NCBI RefSeq assembly: GCF_014695915.1
Contig: NZ_JACJPF010000103.1
Coordinates: 62,001 to 126,000 of the forward strand
Direction of reading: 5' to 3'
Source of the DNA: Trichocoleus sp. FACHB-40
GTDB taxonomy: Bacteria; Cyanobacteriota; Cyanobacteriia; Cyanobacteriales; FACHB-T130
Length of the DNA stretch: 64,000 bases
The notes under the pieces were generated by a model that searched no databases, was not told the origin of the DNA, and saw nothing but the letters and a program-made list of their open reading frames with translations. Position 1 is the stretch's first letter. Each line of letters begins with the position of its first letter. Both the position numbers and the translations under genes were made by a program. This document shows, piece by piece, positions 25,621 to 26,317 of the stretch.

Positions 25621-25756
25621 TTGGATTGGGGATTGGGGATTGGGGATTGGGGATTGGGGATTGGGAAAAAGTCTTACCTAGTTCCTAGTCGCTAGCCCCC
25701 AGTCCCCAGTCGCTAGCCCCCAGTCCCCAGTCCCCAGCCCCCAGCCCCTAACCCCC
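25621..25756. repeat. Composite heptamer repeat element C
   Basis: GGGGATT copies (25622-25663), centre AAAAAGTCTTACCTAG, then many AGTCCCC/AGCCCCC/AGTCGCT copies to 25756. The right arm supplies the terminal codons and TAG stop of the SRPBCC gene, and the left end lies 8 bp from the next start codon. Confidence 0.9.
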
Positions 25757-26317
25757 ACAAAGAACCTGCCGCATTTTTCGCATATTAGCAGGCAATTCCA
25801 ATTGCATTGCCTGTTCAATAAAAAGTGACGGTACTGGGATAGTGGGCGTTGCTTGCACAGCATAGGTGAGCAAAGTTCCATCCGCGTAATCTTGCAGACT
25901 TAAATCGGCTGAGAAATCAACAAAACTGCCTTTTTCTAAGCGAAACTGAATTTGCTGCTGAACAATTTCAACTACCCTTAGATAAGCCTCAACCTGGATA
26001 CTGAGAAACAGGAAAGCTTTATTGGCAACTTGATAGAGACGCTTGCAACCTTGATTTAAAGCATCTGGTGGGTGAAGAACCTCCGAACGAATGACATCCG
26101 GGAAATAATGCACCCATCGGGGGTAATCTGTTAATTGGGGCCAGATAAGCGATCGCGAAGAAGGCAAATACATTTGGGCTGTGACAGCACCACCCCAAGC
26201 AGAATGCTTTCGGGTTTCCAACAAAATCTCGCCTTTTAAAAGCGCCGCTGAGCATCCCTTATTCAGCGGTGAGTCTGAGAAGGCGTCCATCGAGTCCGAC
26301 GGAGAAAGTATACTCAT
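25748..26317 (-). CDS. SRPBCC (START-like) domain protein
   Basis: 189 residues. A cyclase/polyketide-cyclase-like SRPBCC domain covers about 45-185: VTAQMYLPSSRSLIWPQLTDYPRWVHYFPDVIRSEV is the typical beta-strand, helix, ITDYexyxxfxPxv pattern, and the C-terminal helix IEQAMQLELPANMRKMRQVL closes the lipid-binding cavity. The domain binds hydrophobic ligands; no specific substrate is indicated. The first 30 residues (MSILSPSDSMDAFSDSPLNKG) look disordered and may be untranslated. The last codons (GG) and stop come from heptamer element C. It precedes the FAD oxidoreductase on the same strand, separated only by that element. Confidence 0.75.
   Translation of the reverse strand: MSILSPSDSMDAFSDSPLNKGCSAALLKGEILLETRKHSAWGGAVTAQMYLPSSRSLIWPQLTDYPRWVHYFPDVIRSEVLHPPDALNQGCKRLYQVANKAFLFLSIQVEAYLRVVEIVQQQIQFRLEKGSFVDFSADLSLQDYADGTLLTYAVQATPTIPVPSLFIEQAMQLELPANMRKMRQVLCGG

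Follow-up and report, generated by a model that had tools for sequence, protein, structure and literature searches.

The window (the whole 64,000-nt stretch of DNA that was analysed) is part of the 6.38-Mb draft genome G000. Its heptamer element at 25623-25757 belongs to a family of about 50 copies of a real three-part unit, (GGG[G/A]ATT)n + AAAAAGTCTTACC + ([T/C]AG[T/C]CCC)n. Per spacer, 3' gene ends are not over-chosen by these copies; the strongly non-random part of their placement is the abutment on the stop codon. With confidence a little above even, we regard the element as a lineage-specific dispersed REP-like palindrome, one of the heptamer repeats of cyanobacteria (STRR/SDR-type), which spreads over neutral spacer until it reaches a stop codon or a ribosome-binding site. 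What looks like a preference for 3' gene ends, as proposed in a preliminary description of this DNA, can stem from where selection stops and not from function. G000 is presumably a filamentous cyanobacterium, judging from the relative in Microseira wollei with which its FAD protein, encoded beside the element, shares 79% identity. The features of the window are as follows.

25623..25665, + strand: left arm of the element, (GGGGATT)n, 6.1 perfect units (GGATTGG/GGGGATT) of the ATT type (TRF, 100% matches; sequence)
25666..25678, + strand: core AAAAAGTCTTACC (copy counts and position-wise conservation)
25679..25757, + strand: right arm, (TAGTCCC/CAGTCCC/CAGCCCC)n, about 11 units, of the ACT/GCT type on the other strand (TRF, wraparound extension)
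25748..26317, - strand: SRPBCC-type gene, upstream in transcription (ORF; native stop TAG at 25748-25750, in the outermost part of the right arm)
24069..25613, - strand: FAD-type gene, downstream (ORF; start codon separated from the left arm by 9 bp)
4184..4309, + strand: second composite, variant core GAAGAATCTTACC; the stop of the upstream minus-strand gene (4283) lies inside the right arm
13169..13279, + strand: third composite, core AAAAAGTCTTACC; the stop of the upstream minus-strand gene (13271) lies inside the right arm
13974..14098, + strand: fourth, nested composite between divergent genes, with outer (GGGATTA)n and C-rich arms and an inner heptamer palindrome, GAGTTAT / ATAACTC
42995..43023, + strand: lone (AATTGGG)4 array, 0 bp after the stop of a plus-strand gene, with no paired C-rich arm of the same type

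The arrangement of arm, centre and arm given in the preliminary description is thus present at 25623-25757, although its right arm mixes AGTCCCC, AGCCCCC and AGTCGCT units (79% matches by TRF) in place of a clean (AGTCCCC)n array. The stop of the SRPBCC gene does lie inside this arm, where the ORF at 25748-26317 (minus strand) ends, and the left arm does adjoin the start of the next gene (24069-25613), at a distance of 9 bp and not 8. The further copies reported at 4185 and 13172 were found at 4184-4309 and 13169-13279, each flanked by two minus-strand genes. Contrary to what had been stated, the centre is not constant, since the copy at 4184 carries GAAGAATCTTACC; nor are same-strand gene pairs the general setting, the core copies of G000 being distributed genome-wide over 30 tandem, 12 divergent and 10 convergent spacers. 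Elsewhere in the window, at 18612-18730, there are about three 35-bp direct repeats with CTTAGCCCCC...AGGGGG, each of them palindromic.

The search for the centre and its heptamers that had been suggested gave results far above chance. A 19-mer around the core occurs in G000 in 15 exact copies and in 46 copies at no more than 3 mismatches, against 2 for a reversed-pattern control, and a second strain of the same species, G005, contains 55 copies at no more than 3 mismatches. In well-formed elements 12 of the 13 core positions are conserved at 91-100% (range over all positions, 85-100%). ATT-type units outnumber others by 229 to 8 in the left arm, and ACT/GCT-type units (read on the other strand) do so by 232 to 18 in the right arm, while the polarity of the arms relative to the core is consistent in 46 of 47 elements. 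Because the arm types are distinct and their polarity is constant, core and arms constitute one oriented unit. About 17 more composites in 836 kb carry related near-palindromic centres such as GGNAAGANTCTTNCC. Independent local slippage in each spacer, without any common element, would fit the fast change of heptamer copy number, but it is extremely improbable in view of the same 13-nt core and arm polarity at 46 places; as a random process it is ruled out by this conservation, and the proposal of a defined element holds. Hairpin-templated correction, which would equalise the two arms, was rejected as well, as the arms remain unlike (ATT versus ACT/GCT).

The core is essentially confined to one species. 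Among 389 genomes of the order, an exact 15-mer matches 24 times in G000, 28 times in G005 and 0-1 times per genome elsewhere, and these other matches lie in coding or unrelated sequence, with the exception of one relic in the same-family genus G002. A spread of the core into other genera was therefore rejected, G002 having only lone relic-like matches (at L072 and, with different arms, at another place). The preliminary description had held that its proposal would fail if the centre were not conserved between copies; the centre is conserved within the species and is not conserved outside it. A paired pattern, GGGAYTRGG...CCYARTCCC, was detected in the order in 29 of 120 genomes and 22 of 69 genera, most often in G000 and G005, although this survey used a single-unit pattern and some single matches may be due to chance. 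G002 has, on C67 (L314-L333), a (TAATGGG)n/(CAATTAC)n palindrome with a core, GGTAAGAACTTTTTC, near to that of G000 and with different arms. G007, a genome from a different family, has an amplified core of its own, GGGTGAATTCTTAACC, which occurs at C39:1591-1641 and at further places; at C39 the units are GGGATT, 6 bp and not 7 bp long. This case suggests that each lineage amplifies its own core.

The element agrees with REP and REPIN sequences in being an extragenic imperfect palindrome present in many copies. It belongs to the cyanobacterial heptamer repeats (STRR), in that it has tandem 7-bp units of the GGGGATT/GGGGACT type (TRF period 7, arm units) and is dispersed, mainly intergenic and variable in copy number between strains. 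To our knowledge, no function has been accepted for cyanobacterial heptamer repeats, which have been known for decades. The SDRs of Nostoc punctiforme and its relatives, reportedly described by Elhai et al. in 2008 as sequences of 21-27 nt, are said to lie often inside tandem heptamers and to have been proposed as formerly mobile; compared by description only, the G000 element differs from them in the coupling of its core with its arms and in the asymmetry of those arms. Two published repeats, GGGGA(C/T)T of Nostoc PCC 7120 and GGGAATC of Xanthomonas, lie mostly between genes, on the sense strand near stop codons or across them, and are capable of forming G-quadruplexes (Rehm et al., 2015; PMC4692102). 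The occurrence of heptamers near stops is thus already published for Xanthomonas and Nostoc. The G000 element shares with STRR heptanucleotide repeats (heterocystous Calothrix and Nostoc) and with the GGGGA(C/T)T / GGGNATC repeats the units, the intergenic and dispersed location, the variable copy number and the position within 50 bp of or overlapping sense-strand stops (PMC4692102). Paired inverted arrays are present in Xanthomonas and only a few in Nostoc PCC 7120 (PMC4692102); unlike the latter, G000 has the pairing of G-arm, core and C-arm as a rule, with a conserved core, constant polarity and occupancy of the whole spacer. The Xanthomonas arrays resemble the G000 element as closely spaced inverted heptamer arrays capable of forming a stem-loop, but they belong to another lineage, and a conserved asymmetric core between the arms is not described for them in the passages compared (PMC4692102). 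REP, BIME and REPIN sequences are likewise short intergenic palindromes and orientation-independent, whereas the arms of the G000 element are heptamer repeats of variable length. E. coli REPs often lie at most 15 nt from a stop (PMC12306157), and GTAG REPs often provide the TAG stop of flanking genes (PMC3733652). In the literature compared, namely the heptamer study (PMC4692102) and the two REP studies (PMC12306157, PMC3733652), no prior description was found of the asymmetric three-part unit, of exact stop-to-stop replacement of spacers or of the exchange of units between genera at the same gene ends.

The placement of the element relative to genes was analysed with non-overlapping ORFs of at least 90 aa (stops exact, starts approximate) in stretches picked around core copies, the counts of which are not genome totals. 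Composites (63 elements) occupy 11 of 130 convergent, 34 of 363 tandem and 13 of 132 divergent spacers. The preferred site at 3' gene ends is accordingly not seen in the choice of spacer, where frequency is even, and appears in the position within it. Of the stops facing 46 well-formed elements, 36 of 43 are within 5 nt of the end of the element or inside it, with a median distance of 0, whereas uniform placement in the same gaps gives an expectation of 19.3 and never reached 36 in 4000 trials. Equal occurrence in all intergenic positions, which had been named as the observation that would speak against a 3'-end element, is therefore found in part, for the type of spacer, but not for the position inside it. 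Start codons within 5 nt of well-formed elements number 5 of 49 (9.9 expected; median distance 74 nt), starts standing off by anything from a few bases to tens of bases, and in the set of 63 elements 46 of 56 stops are flush, versus 8 of 60 starts. In tandem pairs the upstream stop is the nearer end in 25 of 29 cases, and in many of these pairs the next start codon is only 7-16 bp past the array. The same tendency is visible in sequence-blind lag-7 runs in G000, 54 of 76 of which begin within 10 nt of the stop in post-stop sequence, versus 6 of 28 beginning within 10 nt in divergent spacers read from the starts. The orientation of elements relative to genes shows no preference (++ 12, -- 17, +- 7, -+ 10).

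The tight adjacency might be attributed to a mobile element that inserts specifically at the base following a stop. The adjacency is indeed kept in wide gaps, as at L151 and L166, where the element is 0 bp from the stop and more than 600 bp from the next gene, and the same core is present at about 50 sites in one species. Such targeting is nevertheless improbable: copies occur in divergent gaps with no stop nearby, the stop codons at elements are mixed (TAG 9, TAA 6, TGA 6), and target-site duplications were not seen. Moreover, the occupancy of orthologous sites is nearly complete in G000 and G005, of which the flanks are about 95-99% identical, so that no insertion has been caught. Comparison of the two strains gave no clean empty site, occupied by the whole element in one and free of it in the other, and no mobility enzyme was identified; the element does not show the target-site duplication and clean empty sites by which a MITE or an insertion sequence is recognised.

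What varies between the strains is the arms, which differ by whole heptamers and by unit types, and the core is constant; among sites of unequal length, 22 differ by multiples of 7. At two sites G000 keeps the left arm and has neither core nor right arm, with the same breakpoint (GGG or GAG before AAAAAG), as might arise by gain or by loss. One convergent spacer contains (GGGGACT)n in G000 (L152:6069) and (GGCTAAT)n + (ATTAGCC)n in G005.

Several observations show that the element stands in place of native spacer. In 9 of 11 convergent pairs the residual non-element spacer is at most 15 bp, that is, the gap is filled from stop to stop, while gaps this short (at most 15 bp) make up only 8% of the 119 convergent gaps that contain no array (median 106 bp; Mann-Whitney p = 2e-5). 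Six of the filled convergent pairs are syntenic in the same-family genera G002, G003 and G004; in most of them the protein ends coincide or differ by a few residues, and the spacers there are 31-217 bp long. As these syntenic gaps hold other DNA, the element has replaced the spacer and was not added to it. At a seventh syntenic pair, L147, G000 too retains 155 bp of other spacer. Truncation of genes by a new stop supplied by the array was rejected: the SRPBCC homologues in same-family genera have an identical end residue (CG[GS]-stop), followed by no array of this type, and homologues of most other checked genes end at the same place within a few residues. Pure (GGGGATT)n and (AGTCCCC)n arrays are free of stop codons in all six frames, so that a gene running into one becomes longer and is not terminated.

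If neutral spacer has been overgrown, the unit of core and arms would have been copied to many spacers by recombination or gene conversion among heptamer repeats, or by transposition in trans, and the arms would afterwards turn over by slippage. Unconstrained native spacer would be lost and heptamers would fill in, until the takeover halts at selected sequence, which towards the 3' end of a gene is its stop codon and towards the 5' end its ribosome-binding site or promoter. Adjacency to the stop would then mark the place where purifying selection begins, and the hairpin would have no dedicated strand-specific job, although it would fold in RNA and may secondarily affect expression. Flank loss of this kind is directly visible at L138/L170, where the G000 array is flush at CATCAA and G005 retains about 60 bp of extra native sequence. 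On the other hand, a median distance of 0 nt would demand fast or near-complete erosion, yet flank losses number only one or two among about 70 orthologous sites in strains about 3% apart.

The abutment on stops can also be read as function. The element would then be an orientation-independent hairpin at the 3' end of genes that has supplanted native terminators and acts by terminating transcription, by stabilising the ends of mRNAs or, like E. coli REP, by stalling ribosomes at the stop. We consider this doubtful, though clearly worth weighing. It is consistent with the flushness with native stops in both directions and the filling of convergent gaps from stop to stop, and with the fact that either reading direction gives the order stop, G-rich arm, core, C-rich arm. 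Ribosome stalling can be caused by REPs that lie within 15 nt of a stop (PMC12306157), and in Xanthomonas the starts or ends of transcripts fall at G4-forming heptamers more often than at control repeats (PMC4692102). The long hairpin with G-T wobbles that had been predicted is real on the plus strand, where fold energies of the three copies in the window are -79.6, -62.8 and -79.1 kcal/mol with G-U wobbles paired, far more stable than shuffled sequences. However, the genes lie on the minus strand, whose sequence the flanking transcripts in the window carry; the same copies have -77, -41.8 and -49.4 kcal/mol there, two of the three folding much worse, because the wobbles turn into A-C mismatches. 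A strand-specific RNA role is unlikely given the random orientation genome-wide, and a strand-specific RNA element was rejected, only one strand folding well with G-U in two of the three window copies. The random orientation, despite this large difference in RNA stability, also argues against the orientation-independent 3'-end hairpin, as does the equal frequency per spacer between divergent genes, which have no 3' end to serve. An intrinsic (Rho-independent) terminator was rejected for want of a U-tract: no terminator-like match, i.e., a G+C-rich hairpin followed immediately by a U-run, was found within 25623-25757, and beyond the C-rich arm comes coding sequence or the other stop. In many tandem pairs, moreover, a strong terminator would silence the start 7-16 bp beyond, unless a promoter lies within the element. 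In Rfam only sub-threshold matches were obtained, mostly to miRNA-hairpin models and at chance level, and no family reached its gathering score.

Sister genera frequently have other 7-bp repeats at the same gene ends. At the L134 site G003 contains (GAATGGC)n + (GCCATTC)n and G002 contains (GTTCATN)3 + (NATGAAC)3; sister genera have (GTGATGA)n and (TCAAAAC)n at L152 and (GATTTTA/G)n at L147. For tandem sites, the orthologous post-stop stretches are strongly 7-periodic in 7 of 14 cases in G002 and likewise in 7 of 14 in G003 (p = 4e-5 and 4e-4, respectively; baseline, 13% of 228 G002 post-stop stretches), while periods 5, 6, 8 and 9 gave nothing at these stretches. Compared with shuffled sequences, 7-periodic post-stop stretches of G002 have a median z of -2.9, versus -0.95 in the remaining post-stop stretches and -0.2 in divergent ones, although the orthologous 7-periodic subset folds more weakly (-1.5). 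The persistence of 7-bp repeats across genera with changed sequence, together with the folding in G002, also fits a maintained 3'-end structure and so counts against a simple overgrowth of spacer; the sample is small, and the 7-periodic sister sites may perhaps be just repeat-tolerant places. Speculatively, in this cyanobacterial family certain gene ends might keep a stop-flush 7-bp inverted repeat while its sequence is fully swapped between genera (with GGGGATT, GAATGGC, GTTCATN and GATTTTA among the units) and, at one site, even between strains of a single species. Period 7 and pairing, not the sequence, would then be what is maintained, whether through selection for a 3'-end structure or through a dedicated process writing units of 7 bp. 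A defined palindrome, its replacement of spacer up to native stops and the differing palindromes of sister genera turn a vague curiosity into a question that can now be tested: whether 3' spacers are shaped by repeat turnover alone or a period-7 hairpin is maintained.

The same sister sites bear on the idea that the functional part is the G-rich arms, as G-quadruplex regulatory arrays, and not the palindrome. In vitro, (GGGGATT)4 and (GGGGACT)4 fold into very stable quadruplexes (PMC4692102), and the arm order in composites, G-arm then C-arm in 62 pairs and the reverse in 2, places the G-rich arm outermost on its strand. Sister genera, however, use AT-rich 7-bp units unable to form quadruplexes at the same sites, and inverted paired arms are the rule in G000, which makes a quadruplex function rather remote. 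A further array was noticed in G005 at L196:11234-11407, where three direct copies of TATGGAGTGGTAATCCCCTAGCTCCCTGTGCTACCC stand with C-rich heptamers; its counterpart in G000, in L158, has an extra palindromic repeat, TGTAGGGGCATGGCAATGCCATGCCCCTA, at the matching place.
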